A DNA stretch of 34,050 nt, from assembly GCA_030747035.1 (NCBI GenBank), contig JASLLM010000016.1:1-34050 (forward strand). Direction: 5' to 3'. Origin of the DNA: Alphaproteobacteria bacterium (lineage in GTDB: Bacteria; Pseudomonadota; Alphaproteobacteria; GCA-2731375). The translations under genes were made by a program, and so were the position numbers. The notes beneath the pieces were generated by a model that had not been told where the DNA came from, made no database searches, and worked only from the letters and a program-made list of their open reading frames with translations. Positions within the stretch are counted from its first letter, which is position 1; the number at the start of each line of letters is the position of its first letter. Positions 16,203-24,769 of the stretch are shown piece after piece.

Positions 16203-17270
16203 ATGCAAAACGCTATCTATTCCTCGCTAAAGGCGATGCACTTTCACGGCTCTTTGGATGCCATGCAGGCGAATGAATTGCCGCCGCCCGTGCATATTCG
16301 CATCAAGCCGACCAATGTCTGCAATCACGCCTGCTATTTCTGTGCCTACCGCACGGACGATGTCTCTTTGGGCGAGGACATGGTGGTGCGCGACCGCATC
16401 CCCAGGGACAAGATGATCGAGATTGTCGATGATCTTGTTGAGATGGGCGTCAAAGCGGTAACCTTCTCGGGCGGCGGCGAGCCGCTGATCTATCCCTATT
16501 TCGCCGAGACCGTGGACCGTCTGGCCGCGGGCGGCATCAAGATCGCGTCGCTCTCCAACGGCTCCCGTCTGAAAGGCAAGGTTGCCGATGCCCTGGCGGC
16601 CCATGGCACCTGGCTGCGGGTCTCGATCGACGGTTGGGACGGTCCTTCATACGCCAAGTACCGCTCCGTCGGCGAGGAAGCGTTCGAAGAAGTCATGGAT
16701 AATCTGACGGCATTTTCCGCCCGCGGCTCCGACTGCGTGCTGGGTGGCTCGATCATCGTGGATGAGCGCAATGCGCCGCATATCCTGGAACTGTGCCGCC
16801 GTTTGAAGGATGCGGGCGTGGCCCATGCCAAGATTTCACCCTGTATCATCGCCAATACGGGCGAGGAAAATAATCTCTACCACGACGGCTTCAAGGACAC
16901 GGTGCGGGCGCAGATCGAGCAGGCGAAATCACTGGATGACGCCAATTTCCATGTGGTGGATCACTACCACAGCATGGAAATCGATTTCTCCAAACCCTAC
17001 GACAGTTGCCCCTTTGCCCAGATGCTGACGGTGATCGGGGCCGACTGCAAGGTCTATACCTGTCAGGACAAGGCCTATACGGAAAGCGGCACCCTGGGGG
17101 ATATCTCGGCGCAAAGCTTTCGTGATTTCTGGTATTCGGCGGAAGCCAAGCGGAACCTCGCCGCCATAAACCCGAACCGCACATGCCAGCATCATTGCGT
17201 CGCCGACGCCAAGAACCGTCTGTTGACGGACTACCTCTCCCTGGCGCCCGATCATCTGCCATTTATCTAG
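16203..17270 (+). CDS. Radical SAM protein with SPASM-like C-terminal cysteines
   Basis: A 355-residue radical SAM enzyme. The SAM-cleaving [4Fe-4S] motif CNHACYFC has cysteines 40, 44 and 47. A GGGEPL segment and a VSIDGWD strand follow in the usual order. The C-terminal third has further cysteines (CPFAQ, CKVYTCQDKAY, NRTCQHHC) with the spacing of a SPASM/Twitch domain, which binds one or two auxiliary clusters. Such enzymes modify peptides or small molecules by radical chemistry. No short precursor-peptide gene or obvious partner lies next to it, so the substrate is unknown. It is 80 nt downstream of the CitE-like gene and could be co-transcribed, but the structured leader suggests separate control. 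The ribosome-binding site at ATG 16203 is weak. Confidence 0.9.
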   Translation: MQNAIYSSLKAMHFHGSLDAMQANELPPPVHIRIKPTNVCNHACYFCAYRTDDVSLGEDMVVRDRIPRDKMIEIVDDLVEMGVKAVTFSGGGEPLIYPYFAETVDRLAAGGIKIASLSNGSRLKGKVADALAAHGTWLRVSIDGWDGPSYAKYRSVGEEAFEEVMDNLTAFSARGSDCVLGGSIIVDERNAPHILELCRRLKDAGVAHAKISPCIIANTGEENNLYHDGFKDTVRAQIEQAKSLDDANFHVVDHYHSMEIDFSKPYDSCPFAQMLTVIGADCKVYTCQDKAYTESGTLGDISAQSFRDFWYSAEAKRNLAAINPNRTCQHHCVADAKNRLLTDYLSLAPDHLPFI

Positions 17271-17293: not shown

Positions 17294-19738
17294 CTACGGT
17301 TTTTGCCCGGACTTCAATGACTTGCCCTTGAAACGGGCCATGACCGGCTGAAATACGCCGAAGTGATAGTTGTGGCAGATCAGACAATTGTCCCCGGCCT
17401 TCGCCGCCGTGTGGCATTCGGCACAGACGGCCCGTGGTAGCGGCTTGAAATTGGGGGTGAACACGGCGGGGTCCCGCTGCTTGAACGGCCCGGCAAAATC
17501 AGCCTTGGCATCGCGCTGGTGACAGGTAGTACAGCCTTTTTCGTCCAGCAGCCTGAAATGGGACGCATGAGAAAAACGCACGGACTTTTTCAAACCGTCG
17601 GCCGGCCCATAGCCGCGCCAGTTGACCGCCAAGCCCTGGTCCCCCTGCTGATCGACGGAATGACATTTGCCGCATAGACCCGGTGCCTTGCCCTCGATCA
17701 GGCTTTCGAAGACCTGCGCGCTTTCATCCAGCCGGTTCGCCGTCCGCCCTGTCAGATCGAGCCAGGATCGGATGAACCGATCGCCGTGCCCCGTCGGCCG
17801 GTAGCGCAAGGTATATTCGTCACGGTACCACCCCCCCGCGATGTTCCATTCTTCGCCATCGATCGCTTCCATAACCGTTATGCCAGCCCGGCCATTGCCA
17901 TTGTCCCCGGCCACGACCTTGTCACTATCCTCATCGTCTTCATCATCGTCCTTGCCGGTATCGATCTCCTCATCGTCGTCATCGTCATCCTTACCGGTCT
18001 TAATCTCATCGTCTTCGTCGTCGTCGTCATCATCCTTGCCGGTATCAATCTCCTCATCGTCGTCGTCATCGTCGTCCTTGCCAGTCTTGATCTCATCGTC
18101 GTCGTCTTCGTCGTCGTCATCCTTGCCGGTATCGATCTCCTCGTCATCGTCCCTACCAGTCTTGATCTCATCATCATCCGCATCATCGTCCTTGTCCGGA
18201 TCGTCGGCAGTGCCCTCACCGCGGCTTTCCGGCTCGGCCTCCGCCGCCGGCATCTCGACACTCTCGCCGTTCCGCCAGCGGGGCATTTCCGAGCCCAGCG
18301 CGGGGAACCACTCCCGTTGTGCCGCCACAACGGAATCAAGAGGCAACAATGCGGTGAGCGAGGTCTGCTCCGCCATCGTCAAGGGACGGCGCAGAATAAC
18401 TTGCAGGCGCGCGTGCAAGGTCGCCGCGCCTTCGCCACGAATATCAAAGAAAAGCGATTTCACCGCCCACGCCAAGGTCTCCACCGCGGCCAATTGGCTG
18501 TCGCTGGCCTCGGAAAGATCCATGGGGTCATCAATTTCCGCCAGTACGCCTTGCACCGCCCGGTATTTCGGATTTGCTGACAACAACAGGTGCATGAAGG
18601 GCGGGACGGCGTCTTCGGCGAATTCCGGCCATTCCCCGATCGCCGCGCCGCGATCGCGCAGGCTTTCCACGTCCAGTCCCGGAACCGAGAAAACGGCCAT
18701 GCCCTTGGCGGTGGCGCGGCCGGCGCCGGCAATTTGATCGCCGTGACAGCCGCCGCAGGTAACCTCGAAAGGCTTTAGCCTCATCAGACGGCTGTTGGCG
18801 TCTGTTTTGTGGCAACCGCGGCAGTCGCCGGGCGCCAGTTGCGCCATCTTTTCATCACGGAAATGTTTGTCGATATGACTGGTATGGTCGAACTGCAGCA
18901 GCGTCCGCCGTTCATAGGGATACTGGGCAAAATCGGGATGGCCCGATGCCAGACTGTGGAACTGCGCCTGATGGCAGGCGGTGCAGCGATCGTTGGACAT
19001 GCGCGTCCAATCCGCCTCCGCACCCTGGTGTTCGCCATGGCAGGTCATGCAGGGCAAGGGATCGATATTGGCCCGGGTTTTGCCATAGGCCAGGTTCGCC
19101 AGCTGCACGCCAAGCGTGCGCCCGCCGGCCGTCGCCGGGGCGGCGTTCTTGCGCAATACCGCCATCTCCGCCGCCGGCAGACTGTGTGGCAGCAGGCCAC
19201 GGCTGCCCATCTTATGGCAGTTGATACATGGCGCGGAGGCAGCCTCGGCGCTGTCTTCCGACCATGCGGCACGCCACCAACCGGCAATGCCTTCGTGGAA
19301 GGCGGCATGGCAGCCGCCGCAGTCGGTCAGTTCAGCATGTTGAAACGACAATTCGCCCGGACTGACAAAGGCAGCCCGGTCGGCGCCGGCCATGACGAAA
19401 ACCAGAATACCGGCAAGCAGCGCAATTAGCCATGACACGACAACGCCGCGCCGGGCCCGCCAACTGCGCACCGGGCGGCACAGGGCGACTTGCCGGCAAC
19501 AGGTACCATCCGCCAGCGGCCCGTCTGAACATGGGCCGCCATTGTATTGCGAACGGGTGCAATGCCAGCGATCGCCAACCCGCAGCGGCTCGCATTCATG
19601 GCCGCCGCGGCAACGGCCGCTGCCGTCGGGGCCGGTCAGGCACGGGCAGCCATCCGCGGTATGGCCGCAAATCCATTTCTGCCCCGGCCGGATATAAGGG
19701 CTGTCGCGGTAGCCAAAGGATTGCAGGGGTTCGGACAT
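17294..19738 (-). CDS. Membrane-anchored decahaem c-type cytochrome with Cys-rich N-terminus and Asp-rich repeat
   Basis: An 814-residue protein with ten CxxCH haem c sites. Six lie between residues 140 and 332 (CGGCH, CINCH, CMTCH, CTACH, CRGCH, CGGCH). Four lie after residue 688 (CGKCH, CTTCH, CAECH, CLICH). A single membrane segment (about 98-118) is preceded by Arg-rich sequence, so by the positive-inside rule the first 97 residues are cytoplasmic and the haems periplasmic. The N-terminal part has ten cysteines arranged as two copies of a W-x-C ... P-C-x-x-G-P-x(3)-G-x-C unit. Residues about 511-607 are an Asp-rich repeat. ATG 19738 overlaps the TGA of the b-type cytochrome gene by one base. 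It is the last gene of the redox operon. I do not recognise the overall architecture; a periplasmic electron-storage or relay role is inferred. Confidence 0.92.
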   Translation of the reverse strand: MSEPLQSFGYRDSPYIRPGQKWICGHTADGCPCLTGPDGSGRCRGGHECEPLRVGDRWHCTRSQYNGGPCSDGPLADGTCCRQVALCRPVRSWRARRGVVVSWLIALLAGILVFVMAGADRAAFVSPGELSFQHAELTDCGGCHAAFHEGIAGWWRAAWSEDSAEAASAPCINCHKMGSRGLLPHSLPAAEMAVLRKNAAPATAGGRTLGVQLANLAYGKTRANIDPLPCMTCHGEHQGAEADWTRMSNDRCTACHQAQFHSLASGHPDFAQYPYERRTLLQFDHTSHIDKHFRDEKMAQLAPGDCRGCHKTDANSRLMRLKPFEVTCGGCHGDQIAGAGRATAKGMAVFSVPGLDVESLRDRGAAIGEWPEFAEDAVPPFMHLLLSANPKYRAVQGVLAEIDDPMDLSEASDSQLAAVETLAWAVKSLFFDIRGEGAATLHARLQVILRRPLTMAEQTSLTALLPLDSVVAAQREWFPALGSEMPRWRNGESVEMPAAEAEPESRGEGTADDPDKDDDADDDEIKTGRDDDEEIDTGKDDDDEDDDDEIKTGKDDDDDDDEEIDTGKDDDDDDEDDEIKTGKDDDDDDEEIDTGKDDDEDDEDSDKVVAGDNGNGRAGITVMEAIDGEEWNIAGGWYRDEYTLRYRPTGHGDRFIRSWLDLTGRTANRLDESAQVFESLIEGKAPGLCGKCHSVDQQGDQGLAVNWRGYGPADGLKKSVRFSHASHFRLLDEKGCTTCHQRDAKADFAGPFKQRDPAVFTPNFKPLPRAVCAECHTAAKAGDNCLICHNYHFGVFQPVMARFKGKSLKSGQKP
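17919..18207 (-). repeat. Asp-rich imperfect tandem repeat inside the decahaem cytochrome
   Basis: The coding strand repeats a unit of 3-9 acidic residues followed by Glu-Ile-(Lys or Asp)-Thr-Gly-Lys/Arg. Six units are visible and strictly alternate EIKTG and EIDTG, followed by a final degenerate acidic stretch. On the DNA the plus strand is a GTC/ATC-rich low-complexity tract. It separates the six-haem and four-haem halves and may be a flexible, calcium-binding or partner-docking linker. Confidence 0.9.
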
Positions 19739-20571
19739 CAAAGCGCGCCGCCAAACGAATAGACCAGCAGCAGATGCAGCAGCGCCAGCAGGATCAGCCC
19801 ATAGGTCGCGGGAATATGAACAAACAACCAGGCCTTCAGGACACTCTGCAGGGCATAGGCGTAATCCAACTGGTTCTTTTGCTCCACCAAGGCCTGCAAA
19901 TTCTCGGCATAGCTCAATTCCCGCTCGTTCAGATAACGGGTCATGCTTGTCATCTCGGTGGTCAGGGCAAAGGATGCCCGGCGGGAACCCTGAATGTGTT
20001 GCAGCATATTTCGCGGCCCAGCAAAGAAGGCGGCAAGCCTGCCGCCGTAAAAATCGGCAATCGTTGATGATCCGGTTTCCGCCGCCGATTCAAGCACGAT
20101 GGCCTCGGCCTGCCGCCGCAGCCCGGCCATGATTTGCGGAATTCTTTCCAATACGACCTCTTCGGTGCGCCGGGTCAACATGCGTGCGTAGCGCCGGGAG
20201 ACATAAATTCCAAACAGGCCGCTGCCGGCGGCGGCAAGAAAAAAAACCGCCAGAATACGTTCCAATATTCCGTTGGGTATTCGCCAGTCGATGTGCAGGG
20301 CAAATATCAGAACCGTCAGCAGTCCAAGATAGATATGCACCTGCAACCAAGCCGCCGCCGTGCCCAGGGGCAGCATCGATAATTTCTTGCGGCCATTGTA
20401 AAATGCCAGGACAAGGACCGCCGTCAACAGCAGCCAGCCGGTCAGGATTGCCGGCTGATAAAGCGAAACATCATGGGCAATATGCCAGGCCAGCAAGGCG
20501 GCGGCGGCAAGCAGGGTAATGAAGCCGTTTAGCCAACGGCGTTTGGCAAAAGTGATCACCGGTTCAGCCAC
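19738..20571 (-). CDS. Dihaem b-type membrane cytochrome subunit
   Basis: A 277-residue integral membrane protein with about five hydrophobic segments (roughly 16-33, 41-58, 70-93, 102-122 and 248-272). Two of them carry a His-x13-His pair: H79/H93 in the third and H252/H266 in the last. This is the spacing of bis-histidine dihaem b cytochromes, so two b haems stacked across the membrane are likely. A soluble helical region of about 120 residues separates the fourth and fifth segments. The sequence is not a standard cytochrome b, NarI or b561 that I recognise. It overlaps the iron-sulfur gene upstream by 16 nt and the decahaem gene downstream by 1 nt. It is the natural link between the cytoplasmic FeS protein and the periplasmic haems. 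Confidence 0.8.
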   Translation of the reverse strand: MAEPVITFAKRRWLNGFITLLAAAALLAWHIAHDVSLYQPAILTGWLLLTAVLVLAFYNGRKKLSMLPLGTAAAWLQVHIYLGLLTVLIFALHIDWRIPNGILERILAVFFLAAAGSGLFGIYVSRRYARMLTRRTEEVVLERIPQIMAGLRRQAEAIVLESAAETGSSTIADFYGGRLAAFFAGPRNMLQHIQGSRRASFALTTEMTSMTRYLNERELSYAENLQALVEQKNQLDYAYALQSVLKAWLFVHIPATYGLILLALLHLLLVYSFGGAL

Positions 20572-22337
20572 CTTCCAAGGTCGGTCAAATCCTGCATATC
20601 AACCCGTTTCAGGGCGTCATGGGGACAGGCGCGCGCGCACGCCGGGCCGCCGAGTTGATCAAGGCAAAGGTCACACTTGGTCGCCTTCGCGATTGGAAGT
20701 TTGGTCACGGTATCGCGAATGAAGGCACCATCGCCGTCGCGCACCTCCACCATGCGAATGTTGTCATAGGGGCATGAGTTGGCGCAGGTGGCACAGCCGA
20801 TACAGGTCAAGTCATTGATCGTCACCTGCCCGCCCGACGAGGAGCGGTGGATGGCGCCGGTCGGGCAGCCGATCATGCAGACAGGGTCCATGCAATGCAT
20901 GCAGGCGTTGGCGACCATATAGTTGCCATGACGGCGGCCATGGCGATTGAAGCGCGGATTGTTGTCATGGGCGCGGGCACATGCCAGCACGCATTCGTCG
21001 CAGCGCACGCAACGGCCCAGGTCCATCAGCATGGTTGCCGTACCGTTGATGTAGCGGTGCTCCACCAGGAACTCCAACATCCCCGGGTCGATCACCGGAT
21101 TGTCCCATGCATCGTCGTCACGGCTCTTGCCAGTGCTCACCCTGTCGCGGTCCAGTCGACCATAGAGCGCCAATTCCGCGGTCGATAAGGTTGGCAGGAC
21201 CAATTCCTCGATCACCGCGGTGGGAACCCGCAGAATATCTACATAGCCCAGCGCCCGCAGGGTGGACTGCAATGTGGTTGTCTGCGCGCCGCCGTCATCA
21301 TCTACGCCATCGGCCACTACGCCGCCACCGTCATCGTGGCGCCAGTTATGGATGATTTCGGCCATGCCGAAGACCGCACCCCTGCCAATGTAGCGGATGG
21401 TCCGGTGGCCATTGTTGACCGCCCGGCTGACCCGGCCAAAACCGGCTCGAACCAGAAGCAGGCCATCGGGATAATCGCCCTCAGCCACGATTATTGGCTC
21501 CTCCGCCAGCCGGCGGCTAAAGCTTTCGTCTCTTTGGCGCTGGTACTGTGTATGCCAGTCAAAATCGCCATAGGTCTCAAATACGGTTTCATCGGCGATG
21601 CGGTTGATTGCCTCCGCATCCAGTCGCTGAAACATGGGCATGGCCTGCAAATGTGACGTCAGGCTGCGTTCACGATAGAGCCGGTCCACGTGTCGGCGGA
21701 AGTCATCAACGCGGCGCCTGATATCGCGCAAGCCCTGCCAGCGGATTTCAAGCAGTTCCGAGGGACCATCGGAAATCACCGTCGCCGTGCGCTGGGTCCG
21801 CCCCAACGCCGCGATTTCACCAAACATATCAGCCGGCCCAAGGGCCGCCGTGCGGTGCTGGTCAAACACCGCCCTGATATCCTGAATAAAGATGCGGGCC
21901 TGCTGCTGAGCATCGTCGCGGCTTGCGGTGCCCCCGTCCGGTGCGCCGAAAAATACGCTCCGAACCTCCGGATAAGCCGGATTGCGCCACAATTGCGCTA
22001 TTGCCTGGAAAAGACTTTTCTTGGCACTTGGGCCCCGACCCAACATGGCTTCGGGCAGGCCCGGCGGCAAGACAACGCGAACCTGCCCAGTAATGACCAG
22101 GAAGGCTGAATTACCGTAGTCCCCTTCCCGCATGACGATGTCGCCATCCTGAAAGTGAACGACCCTGGTATCGTTGGCGATGATGCCGTCGAGGGACAGG
22201 GTTTCGGGAAACCGCCCTCGGTCCATGCCCCGGAACGGTTCCAGCCCCAGAATACGGTTGACCTCCACTTCGTCCATGGCATCGGAAAACGGCGTATCCC
22301 AACGCCTGGGCCGCTGTATCGTGACCGCTTCAACCAT
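20556..22337 (-). CDS. Cyclic-nucleotide-domain / poly-[4Fe-4S] ferredoxin fusion protein
   Basis: A 593-residue cytoplasmic-looking protein. Residues about 45-205 form a cNMP-binding domain. GDIVMREGDYGNSAFLV is followed by an insert of about 70 residues, then MFGEIAALGRTQRTATV, which keeps the Glu and Arg of a phosphate-binding cassette. A second cNMP-like domain (about 225-375) is degenerate (FGMAEI, no matching Arg). From about 438 to 580 there are four cysteine clusters (CVRCDECVLAC, CMHCMDPVCMIGCP, CIGCATCANSCP, CDLC...CARACP) like the HycB/NrfC/DmsB electron-transfer subunits, enough for four [4Fe-4S] clusters. No Tat signal is present. It probably passes electrons to the b-type cytochrome whose gene it overlaps, perhaps under cyclic-nucleotide or redox control. 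The ribosome-binding site before ATG 22337 is weak. Confidence 0.9.
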   Translation of the reverse strand: MVEAVTIQRPRRWDTPFSDAMDEVEVNRILGLEPFRGMDRGRFPETLSLDGIIANDTRVVHFQDGDIVMREGDYGNSAFLVITGQVRVVLPPGLPEAMLGRGPSAKKSLFQAIAQLWRNPAYPEVRSVFFGAPDGGTASRDDAQQQARIFIQDIRAVFDQHRTAALGPADMFGEIAALGRTQRTATVISDGPSELLEIRWQGLRDIRRRVDDFRRHVDRLYRERSLTSHLQAMPMFQRLDAEAINRIADETVFETYGDFDWHTQYQRQRDESFSRRLAEEPIIVAEGDYPDGLLLVRAGFGRVSRAVNNGHRTIRYIGRGAVFGMAEIIHNWRHDDGGGVVADGVDDDGGAQTTTLQSTLRALGYVDILRVPTAVIEELVLPTLSTAELALYGRLDRDRVSTGKSRDDDAWDNPVIDPGMLEFLVEHRYINGTATMLMDLGRCVRCDECVLACARAHDNNPRFNRHGRRHGNYMVANACMHCMDPVCMIGCPTGAIHRSSSGGQVTINDLTCIGCATCANSCPYDNIRMVEVRDGDGAFIRDTVTKLPIAKATKCDLCLDQLGGPACARACPHDALKRVDMQDLTDLGRWLNR

Positions 22338-22397
22338 GGCAGACCGCCATTATTTCGTCTCCGCCCAGCGCCGTCGCCAAAATCCTTCGCCGACCGC

Positions 22398-23402
22398 CTA
22401 TTTTTTGCGCTTGTATTTCTTCGGCTTGGGCAAAACCGGGTCCAACCCGGCGAAAGTGCTGCCGTCATATTTGTCGGCCATGGCCTGGGCATGGCGCGCC
22501 ACGGTGTCGGCGGCGGCGGTCAACTTGGCTTCATTATTCAATTTCAGTTTCGCCGCCTTGGCCGCCTTATACATGGCCATCAGCTCCGGCGCCTCAATCA
22601 GCTTCGCAATCGCCTTGATCCGCTTGCGCGCCTTCTTGGCCCGCTTTGCCATCTTGACGGCATAGTCGGCCTTTTTCGTCGCCTTGGCGACGCCACGCAG
22701 GGCGTATTCCAGATCCAACGCGCGGCCAACCAGATACATCATGCGCAGCCGGGCGATGGGGGAAACCTGGTTTTTCTTGGAGTACCAGACATTGTGCCGC
22801 ACTTCGCCCTGGCTCCAGGCGACAAGCTCAAACTTGCTGCCCGCCGCATGACCGCCCTTATTGACCAGTTTTTCGTTCGGCACGGTGTGGCAGCTATAAC
22901 AATTCTGCGCCACCTTGTAGAGTTTGCTTGGCCGGATCATTCCGGCCGCCTCGGACTTGGCATAACGCTCGGCCTTGTGGGCAGCGGTTTCGTTTTCCGC
23001 TTTCACATCCTTGCCGCCGAAATCGCTATGTACCTTGATCCAGTCGCGGCCCGCACCGTGGCAGGATTCACAAGTGATACCGGCGATTGGCTTGACCTTC
23101 CCCTTAACCATGGCCGAGGTAAAATGGCAGGACAGGCAGTCACTGCCCGCCTTGATCCGTTTCAAACCCATCTTGTCGGCAATACTTCGGGCTTCCTTCT
23201 TGCGGGGCAAAGCCTTGAAGGTCGAGAAATGATGACTGCCCTTCCAGAATTCTATGGACGACTTGTGGCATTCACCGCAGGCATCCGGCCCCATGACCTT
23301 GGCCGGATCAAGATGCAGTTGCTGGGCCCGGCCTTGGTCGGAGCCCATTATCAAGGCGCCGAACAACGCCAACCCGGTCAATAACAGGCGCGCATTCATC
23401 AT
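22398..23402 (-). CDS. Secreted tetrahaem c-type cytochrome, c554-like
   Basis: A 334-residue periplasmic cytochrome. An N-terminal signal peptide (MNARLLLTGLALFGALIMG, probable cleavage after GRA) is followed by four CxxCH sites: C42-H46 (CGECH), C89-H93 (CLSCH), C111-H115 (CESCH) and C168-H172 (CYSCH). The count and the GPDACGECH opening resemble the cytochrome c554/c' family of multihaem electron carriers. The last 130 residues lack haem sites and are helical and rich in Lys and Ala, ending in a basic tail that could bind a partner or membrane. The ATG at 23402 follows a G-rich site by 9 nt. It sits second in the redox operon, 92 bp after the reductase. Confidence 0.92.
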   Translation of the reverse strand: MMNARLLLTGLALFGALIMGSDQGRAQQLHLDPAKVMGPDACGECHKSSIEFWKGSHHFSTFKALPRKKEARSIADKMGLKRIKAGSDCLSCHFTSAMVKGKVKPIAGITCESCHGAGRDWIKVHSDFGGKDVKAENETAAHKAERYAKSEAAGMIRPSKLYKVAQNCYSCHTVPNEKLVNKGGHAAGSKFELVAWSQGEVRHNVWYSKKNQVSPIARLRMMYLVGRALDLEYALRGVAKATKKADYAVKMAKRAKKARKRIKAIAKLIEAPELMAMYKAAKAAKLKLNNEAKLTAAADTVARHAQAMADKYDGSTFAGLDPVLPKPKKYKRKK

Positions 23403-23494
23403 CACAAGTTTCCCCCCAATCTATCTACCAGTCATTCATTCCCTGGTTGAACTAGTCTTTATCAAGCCGGTTGCCAATATTTGGCCATAGAGCG

Positions 23495-24769
23495 TCAGGC
23501 ATCCAAGGCCAAATCCGTCTTCGGTACGGAAATACAAGCGAGACAGGAACCGGATTCGGGCCGCGAACCGGGTTCTTCCACATAATCGACATCCCCCGTT
23601 TTCACCGCGGTGATGCAGGTGCCGCAACTTCCCGCCCTGCAGCCGGAATCCAATTCAATGCCGTTTGCTTCCGCCAGTTCCAGGATGGAGCCCTGAGTGC
23701 CATCCCAGGTGATTTTCTTGTTCGAACGGGCGAAGGTCACGATCTGCCCGGTTGCCGCGGCCACCTCCGTTCCCGGCGCGGCGGCGGTTTTCTTCACACT
23801 GGCCGGCCCGAACGCCTCGAAATGTATATCGTCATCCGGCACACCCCATTGGCGCAGATCCGCCGTCAGGGATTCCATCATCGGCGGCGGCCCGCAAACG
23901 TAGAATTCATAGTTGTTCGAGGGCAGGACCTGCTTGAACAAATCAACGCTGACCCGGCGCGCATGGTCAAAGCCATGGCCTACGACCTCGTCACCCTTGG
24001 GATCGCTATAGCAAATCCGCACATGAACATTCTCATGTTCTGCCTCCAAGGCCTCGAAATGCTCCCGCATGATGTGTTCATCGCCGTTGCGAATGCCATA
24101 AAAAAACCATGTCTCCCGTTGTGATCCCGATTCACAAATGGCGTTCAGCATGGAAACCATGGGAGTCAGGCCGACGCCGCCGCCAATCAAAACCACGGGA
24201 CTGTGTTTCGAGAGATCGAGGAAGAAGTTTCCTGACGGCGCCTTCACATCGACTATGTCGCCGGGGTGCAGATCGGCATGGAAATAGTTCGACGCCCGCC
24301 CGGGCGGTGCATCCGGTTCCCGGGGCGGCGGTCCCTGACGCTTAATGCTGACCCGGTAATGGTCCGTCTGAAAAGGGCTATCGGACAATGAATAACACCG
24401 CACCAAGGGCTTATCCCGGTCCGGCAGGCGCAGATTAAACGTCAGATACTGGCCCGGCGAGAACGGCGGCACCGCCTTGCCATCATGCGGCACCAAATAG
24501 AAGGAGCAGATATCGCCGCCTTCCATGATCTTGTCACGAATTCGAAATTTGCGGACACCCGACCAGGTCGCAACGGTCTTTTTACGTTCGATATCGCCGC
24601 TCAGGGTCTCGGCCGCGACCCGTCGTTGCAACAGCTCATTCGCCAAACCCTGTTGCACCCTGGCCAGCGCCGCGCCCCGCCAGGTGCCGTATAACAGAAC
24701 GGCCAATTGTGTGAAGGCGGCGAGAATTATCAATGCACCGATGATTTGAATCGTCCACGTCGCAATCAT
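23495..24769 (-). CDS. Membrane-anchored NAD(P)H:[2Fe-2S] flavoprotein reductase
   Basis: A 424-residue oxidoreductase of the ferredoxin-NAD(P)H reductase type. An N-terminal membrane anchor covers about residues 4-30. The FAD-binding motif RCYSLS is at 124-129. The nucleotide-binding GGGVGLTPM lies near 196, and YVCGPPPMM follows. The C-terminus is a plant-type [2Fe-2S] ferredoxin domain with C377, C382 and C385 (CRAGSCGTC) and the fourth ligand at C409 or C412. It would exchange electrons between NAD(P)H and a one-electron carrier at the inner face of the membrane. ATG 24769 is preferred to the TTG at 24778; GGGA lies about 5 nt upstream. It is the first gene of the redox operon, so the promoter should lie in 24770-25016. 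Confidence 0.92.
   Translation of the reverse strand: MIATWTIQIIGALIILAAFTQLAVLLYGTWRGAALARVQQGLANELLQRRVAAETLSGDIERKKTVATWSGVRKFRIRDKIMEGGDICSFYLVPHDGKAVPPFSPGQYLTFNLRLPDRDKPLVRCYSLSDSPFQTDHYRVSIKRQGPPPREPDAPPGRASNYFHADLHPGDIVDVKAPSGNFFLDLSKHSPVVLIGGGVGLTPMVSMLNAICESGSQRETWFFYGIRNGDEHIMREHFEALEAEHENVHVRICYSDPKGDEVVGHGFDHARRVSVDLFKQVLPSNNYEFYVCGPPPMMESLTADLRQWGVPDDDIHFEAFGPASVKKTAAAPGTEVAAATGQIVTFARSNKKITWDGTQGSILELAEANGIELDSGCRAGSCGTCITAVKTGDVDYVEEPGSRPESGSCLACISVPKTDLALDA

Follow-up and report, generated by a model that had tools for sequence, protein, structure and literature searches.

Five genes of an alphaproteobacterial contig match the inner half of the putative porin-cytochrome system PCC4 and may link it to NAD(P)H

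The window analysed here is the entire contig C77 (34,050 bases) of an alphaproteobacterial genome (4.3 Mb, 351 contigs, 85% complete), whose close relatives have the record titles Rhodospirillaceae or Alphaproteobacteria. Five redox genes of the window match, in every sequence feature tested, the inner-membrane and periplasmic half of PCC4 subgroup II. PCC4 is a putative porin-cytochrome cluster proposed from genomes by He et al. (2017; main text of PMC5566968). The original prediction had found the set unlike any system it could name, which was not borne out. It seems moderately probable that the five genes encode the inner half of a PCC4-type conduit leading from NAD(P)H to the outside of the cell.

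The five open reading frames, like all window features below unless stated otherwise, lie on the minus strand; they contain no internal stop. Their 5' to 3' order is reductase, tetrahaem cytochrome, cyclic nucleotide-binding (cNMP)/Fe-S protein, b-type membrane protein and decahaem cytochrome. The first and second genes are separated by 89 nt and the second and third by 60 nt, the Fe-S and b genes overlap by 16 nt, and the b and decahaem genes by 1 nt (TGATG). There are four CxxCH haem motifs in the tetrahaem and ten in the decahaem protein, against means of 0.0045 and 0.04 in shuffled sequences and a maximum of 1 (2000 shuffles each). The reading frames and motif counts confirm what had been predicted: five redox genes on one strand, their order, four plus ten haem sites and overlaps of 1-16 nt.

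The NAD(P)H reductase gene (23495..24769, from the first ATG) encodes an N-terminal membrane helix (hydrophobic stretch at residues 1-33) followed by FAD, NAD(P) and C-terminal plant-type [2Fe-2S] domains, as judged by hydropathy and Pfam (PF00175, E = 9.8e-21; PF00111, 2.5e-11; PF00970, 2e-6). Its best NCBIfam model is the NO-inducible flavohaemoprotein, whose score of 258 bits is below the cut-off of 432. Subunit F of the Na+-NQR was rejected, the nqrF model giving 124 bits against a cut-off of 295. The tetrahaem cytochrome (22398..23405, start codon GTG) is of the c554 type, with a hydrophobic, signal-like N-terminus and similarity to PF13435 (2.7e-15) and to cytochrome c554 of PDB entry 1bvb (4.1e-8).

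The cNMP/Fe-S protein (20556..22337; PF00027, 3.2e-23; PF13247, 5.1e-11) has no hydrophobic segment and is predicted to be cytoplasmic, with four [4Fe-4S] clusters. Its 16 cysteines all fall within the C-terminal 151 residues, in a region of the AegA/HydN/DmsB kind (residues 443-571, 20625..21011); of 83 relatives, 77 have exactly 16 cysteines within their last 220 residues. In the first cNMP domain, the candidate phosphate-binding cassette (residues 173-183, 21789..21821) contains the pattern E-x8-R, formed by Glu174 and Arg183. This pattern occurs once in the protein, the second cNMP domain being without it. Glu174 and Arg183 are invariant across the seven rows of alignment A1, and the signature is present in all 84 Fe-S relatives examined. 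In known cNMP sites the Glu and Arg contact the phosphate, and protein kinase A has the same spacing. Thus, of the transmembrane conduit with a cNMP-sensing Fe-S relay that the original prediction proposed, the parts are upheld by the sequences, whereas the function may be as suggested.

The next gene (19738..20571) encodes a five-helix membrane protein, corresponding to the inner-membrane protein (IMP) of PCC4. It contains WX3HX13H twice (W75-H79-H93 and W248-H252-H266), with SGLFG at 117-121. At least one WX3HX13H arose in 14 of 5000 shuffles of this protein. All 60 aligned relatives have two such motifs and the same four histidines, and 55 of the 60 have SGXXG. By these patterns, the protein probably binds two b haems, via His79/His93 and His252/His266. 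Its AlphaFold model has a mean predicted local distance difference test (pLDDT) score of 93. No Foldseek match was found in the PDB (best E 0.57), no sequence match in a 60-row profile search of solved structures (best E 0.34), and no Pfam family above cut-off.

The decahaem cytochrome (17294..19738, from the first ATG; PF14522, 1.8e-12; PF22113, 2.2e-9) consists of a ten-cysteine domain (19454..19678), one membrane helix (residues 96-127 numbered from the TTG, 19361..19456, by hydropathy), six haem sites, an Asp-rich repeat linker between sites 6 and 7 (17897..18208, seen in the translation) and four further haem sites. The ten-cysteine pattern is conserved in 67 of 68 decahaem relatives, counting those with at least nine haem sites, and the window copy matched no Pfam family at E-values up to 0.5. 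Since the domain is followed by the membrane helix and an Arg-rich stretch precedes the latter, it is predicted to face the cytoplasm. It is a duplicated Cys-rich domain and may present a Zn or Fe-S site to the Fe-S protein. The original prediction had noted neither this domain nor the membrane helix.

The assignment to PCC4 follows the published feature description, as given in the main text of PMC5566968, and a metagenome-assembled genome titled Mariprofundus (L071) stands in for the Zetaproteobacteria of the authors. According to that text, the products of PCC4 are a porin, three haem proteins of the periplasm (4, 5 and 10 haems) and a membrane protein of five helices, in which helix 4 bears SGXXG and helices 3 and 5 each bear WX3HX13H. 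Subgroup II has, in addition, an Fe-S gene of PF13247 upstream of the membrane protein, and the hosts of PCC4 are Zeta-, Gamma- and Alphaproteobacteria and Planctomycetes (PMC5566968, same text). In the genome analysed here, the proteins with 4 and 10 haems are encoded in the window, and the pentahaem cytochrome and a porin, a homologue of which is modelled as a barrel, on contig C329. The five-helix protein has both kinds of motif, the PF13247 gene is directly upstream of it, overlapping by the 16 nt noted above, and a redox gene, the reductase, precedes the tetrahaem gene. A difference is that the porin and the pentahaem cytochrome are on another contig. The main text of PMC5566968 uses 'cyclic nucleotide' 0 times and 'NADH' once, about Cyc2; its supplement may note such domains. 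The cNMP signature, the ten-cysteine domain, the wider spread and the porin-less group described below are added here to the PCC4 description. No experiment on PCC4 was found in the literature searched. In connection with porin, cytochrome and electron transfer, PCC4 appeared in two papers, PMC5566968 and PMC13264449, the latter mentioning it once. By its own terms, the original prediction would have been refuted had the set matched a complex both named and characterised; the complex matched is named, but no experiment on it was found.

Other known systems are similar in part. The membrane protein of PCC3 has the same motifs, and this cluster too combines a porin with multihaem proteins; however, the membrane proteins of PCC3 and PCC4 have no significant overall homology according to the authors, and the haem proteins of PCC3 have a median of 34 and 21 haems (PMC5566968, main text). 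In NADPH oxidases and ferric reductases, electrons pass outward from NAD(P)H and FAD to two b haems held by HX13H pairs (ibid.). The system considered here differs in the added Fe-S relay and c haems, and membership of that family was rejected: the b protein has no PF01794 match and no fold match, its best Foldseek E-value being the 0.57 given above. The idea of a conduit of porin and multihaem cytochrome is shared with MtrCAB and MtoAB, but the decahaem protein of this set carries a membrane helix. An MtrB-type porin was rejected: two porins tested had no Pfam family, one of them had no PDB sequence match below E 0.84, and the best 50 of 196 fold hits were other barrels. The Hmc, Qrc, Nrf and Nar systems were rejected as well, as NCBIfam scores were far below cut-off (HmcA 28 of 400 bits, QrcA 23 of 180, HmcB 41 of 420, NrfC 39 of 378, NarH 31 of 524). 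No terminal enzyme was recognised among the five genes in Pfam, NCBIfam and PDB sequence searches, in agreement with the original prediction, which saw no catalytic terminal reductase.

The conservation of the locus was analysed using the Fe-S protein. A scan of one genome per species yielded at least 484 stretches encoding some relative (E <=1e-3), perhaps with plain ferredoxin-type proteins among them, and the best 80 of these stretches were used as loci (L035-L114). As the bait of the scan, the Fe-S gene is present in all 80 by construction. Profile searches of the 80 loci added two genes to the five, one for a pentahaem cytochrome and the other for a predicted outer-membrane barrel. All seven genes are found at one locus in 25 of the 80, and the five genes together in 60 (40 main-type and 20 porin-less loci); thus the five are conserved together in related genomes, and their order recurs in distant relatives. 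The Fe-S, b and decahaem genes have the same order and strand in 73 loci, and a single order pentahaem-porin-reductase-tetrahaem-FeS-b-decahaem on one strand is seen in 12. The b gene is present in 77 of the 80 loci, the reductase gene in 72 (two of the other eight had room for it) and the porin gene in 31. In the 55 loci of the main type, the pentahaem gene is present in 30, absent from 8 that had sufficient room, and not seen in 17 where the contig ends. Whole-genome searches of fourteen main-type genomes lacking it at the locus gave a strong match elsewhere in 12, and weak ones only in two, G091 and G092. Four of the 14 records (L035, L037, L039, L041) are from the genus of the window and overlap with the set of 61 genomes considered below.

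By record title and tree, the lineages are Pseudomonadota (Alpha-, Gamma- and Zetaproteobacteria by title), Verrucomicrobiota, Planctomycetota, Poribacteria, Nitrospinota, Bdellovibrionota and SAR324. The b protein profile matched 66 of 385 drawn genomes of the class of the window (25 at E <1e-60) and 17 of 194 genomes of the phylum to which the genome of L085 belongs (ten at <1e-60). Four loci titled Akkermansia muciniphila or Klebsiella pneumoniae (L072, L073, L074, L085) group with Verrucomicrobia bins from lakes and groundwater in the Fe-S tree, and these record titles may be wrong for their DNA. Two relatives carrying the set have records of cultured strains, Hwanghaeella grinnelliae (L046) and Ferruginivarius sediminum (L102). 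Genome G005 has two copies of the cluster (L029, L030), and G003 a second, divergent Fe-S/b/decahaem copy (L033).

On contig C329 of the window genome, the pentahaem cytochrome (65% identical to that of G007) and the porin (47%) are encoded together, 126 bases from the contig end; the other five genes are not within the 12.6 kb fetched. Similarly, the pair stands without the other five genes in the 14-18 kb fetched from G010, G002 and G001. Among 61 related genomes, a pentahaem match at <1e-70 was found in 12 of the 13 with an Fe-S match at <1e-130 and in 1 of the 48 without it (Fisher p 1e-10, not corrected for kinship, as ten of the 13 genomes are one genus). Weaker matches were left out of this count, namely the pentahaem matches in G008, G015, G036 and G054 and the Fe-S matches in 21 further genomes; at E 0.001, some pentahaem match is present in 17 of the 61 genomes and some Fe-S match in 34. 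The exception is G021, in which the pentahaem, porin, reductase and tetrahaem genes are on a 4.4-kb contig. The barrel model (made for the G007 gene, pLDDT 80) has 17 strands of at least nine residues, so about 18. The original prediction had offered the decahaem or the tetrahaem protein as the acceptor or donor site. As the pentahaem cytochrome and the predicted barrel co-occur with the set, in this genome on another contig, the end site is probably neither.

Another group of loci seems to manage without the porin. Its 25 members were listed by hand from their weak decahaem scores, some having no decahaem gene on the contig. They form one branch (support of 100 in the Shimodaira-Hasegawa-like approximate likelihood ratio test, SH-aLRT, on a quick tree with a midpoint root for drawing only), and 21 of the 25 are titled Verrucomicrobiota. 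Their decahaem proteins are lower-scoring, and most are about 560-640 residues from stop to stop. What is counted as their 'tetrahaem' gene matches weakly and, in most loci, has three haem sites, and a divergently placed c554-type gene occurs in 22 of the 25 where seen. No porin or pentahaem match was found in the 25 loci, only 7 of which had room on both sides. Whole-genome searches covered 20 genomes with 21 of the loci (L064, L067, L084 and L091 were left out). A strong pentahaem match was absent from 19 of the 20, G084 having one (7e-243), and four further genomes have matches of 9e-14 to 4e-4, which were not counted. Within the loci and genomes searched, a hidden porin-bearing system was rejected for this group. 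In 12 loci inspected, no other multihaem gene was consistently found near the core.

If the reading as an outward conduit holds, electrons from NAD(P)H would enter the FAD and [2Fe-2S] centre of the membrane-anchored reductase and pass to the cNMP/Fe-S protein in the cytoplasm with its four [4Fe-4S] clusters. The latter would donate them to the two b haems of the five-helix protein, and these to the periplasmic decahaem cytochrome, the proteins presumably forming a complex. From there, the tetrahaem carrier would deliver them to the pentahaem cytochrome at the outer-membrane barrel, both encoded elsewhere in the genome, and these to an acceptor located in the outer membrane or outside it. The flow would be switched when the Fe-S protein binds a cyclic nucleotide. 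NAD(P)H is the likely partner on the inside, because the reductase is present in 72 of the 80 loci. Outward flow is favoured over inward flow. By general energetics, electrons would run downhill from NAD(P)H (near -0.32 V) to c haems and would also be driven outward by an inside-negative membrane, whereas inward flow from Fe(II)-like donors to NAD(P)+ would be uphill on both counts. No ion pump is visible among the genes. RuBisCO is absent from the 12 window-related genomes bearing the set that were searched (of 13; G008 was left out), which leaves autotrophy on Fe(II) by the Calvin-Benson-Bassham cycle unsupported there; it is present in 2 of 19 genomes searched overall. The bin names of close relatives suggest samples from Saanich Inlet, the Black Sea and the Caspian at 150 m, places read from titles. 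In such oxygen-poor water, Fe and Mn oxides are available.

Several observations weigh against this reading. He et al. propose the opposite direction, from an outside donor to quinone, and in their subgroup I there is no Fe-S gene, so that the relay is not universal in PCC4 (PMC5566968, main text). The likeness to NADPH oxidases and ferric reductases is one of histidine spacing only, since neither a PDB fold nor a Pfam ferric-reductase domain was found. The barrel is most like the MOMP, AlgE and OprD channels (judged from the 50 top-ranked among 196 fold hits with E <=0.001), and is no more than a candidate to hold the pentahaem cytochrome. G008 has the core and only a weak pentahaem match at a contig edge, and the matches in G091 and G092, which also have the core, are weak (1e-11 and 5e-10). 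The outer part is not obligatory, since the porin-less group keeps the core without a strong pentahaem match in 19 of 20 genomes. The test for carbon fixation covered RuBisCO alone. Finally, the conduit as such is suggested by sequences and models.

The most serious alternative, though an unlikely one, is inward flow, in which Fe(II) or Mn(II) would donate electrons through the porin and pentahaem protein, the tetrahaem and decahaem cytochromes and the b protein to quinone, the reductase and the Fe-S protein forming a side branch. It agrees with the model of He et al., with the habitats of PCC4 hosts and with their subgroup I lacking the Fe-S gene, and the two WX3HX13H motifs resemble those of quinone-reactive cytochromes b (PMC5566968, main text). 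Six of the seven genes are carried by the Mariprofundus-titled L071, whose contig ends where the pentahaem gene would be. Mariprofundus is a genus of iron oxidisers. However, a path to quinone only does not need the reductase found in most loci, electrons would have to go uphill to reach NAD(P)+ with no pump visible, and the 12 window-related genomes searched have no RuBisCO.

Less likely still, the core could feed NAD(P)H electrons to a periplasmic or cell-surface reductase, with the pentahaem protein as the enzyme and the barrel admitting a small-molecule substrate. The barrel model does resemble substrate channels, and the porin-less group runs the core mostly without the pentahaem protein, six of its 25 loci having an HbpS-like protein instead. 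The pentahaem profile matches cytochrome c552 (5ze8, 2.5e-16) and, weakly, the enzymes MccSep (0.0014) and MccA (0.027). On the other hand, six histidines outside the five CxxCH motifs are invariant in all 14 rows of alignment A5, enough, by count and not by structure, for bis-His ligation of every haem. The sequence pattern of the pentahaem protein thus leans towards a role in electron transfer. That unrelated redox genes are neighbours by chance has nothing in its favour besides the uncertainty of the original prediction, and is rejected as extremely improbable given the order and strand of the Fe-S, b and decahaem genes kept in 73 of 80 loci across distant lineages.

A distant relative of the core, family B, was observed in G013, G021, G039 and G043. 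It is similar in having a cNMP and four-cluster Fe-S protein beside a b protein; the same four histidines are found in the three b proteins aligned, and the decahaem protein of L026 also has a membrane helix. In L026 (2981-7961), the Fe-S fusion is followed by the distant b protein and the decahaem gene. This locus differs in that a pyridine-nucleotide-disulphide reductase is fused to the cNMP and [4Fe-4S] parts in one protein of 800 amino acids, and the start of its decahaem protein is FHA-like (PF00498, E 0.24 only). By eye, both cNMP domains of the L026 protein contain an E-x8-R-like pattern. The distant Fe-S and b pair was also seen in L025, L027 and L028. A long HbpS-like (PF03928) protein is encoded near the core in three of the four family B loci (L025, L026, L027), and in L059, L075, L085, L104, L108 and L111 of the porin-less group. 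Pfam confirmed the domain in L026 and L085, and the other proteins were recognised by their BLAST similarity to these two. The HbpS-like protein may be an alternative outer partner.

In the window, a plus-strand gene at 16203-17270, radical SAM-like by eye, is convergent with the cluster. A gene of 355 amino acids with a similar start occupies the same position in L031, L032 and L034.

Judged by its sequences, the system is real, widely conserved and already named, and the value of the present analysis is a sharper mechanism, with a candidate NAD(P)H side, a candidate cyclic-nucleotide site and a modular outer part. A fuller picture, which we regard as tentative and rather doubtful, is that of a two-membrane, NAD(P)H-driven exporter with a Fe-S relay switched by cyclic nucleotides, a ten-cysteine metal centre or contact domain at the cytoplasmic end of the decahaem protein, a range of at least seven lineages, and a core combined with varied outer partners. 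The outer genes are split off in the genus of the window and lost in one group, which provides natural comparisons, and the conserved Glu/Arg pair makes the cyclic-nucleotide switch directly testable. If flow is outward, PCC4 would be recast from a candidate for iron oxidation to a reductase, and many marine and lake bacteria could shed the reducing power of NAD(P)H outside the cell under the control of a second messenger.

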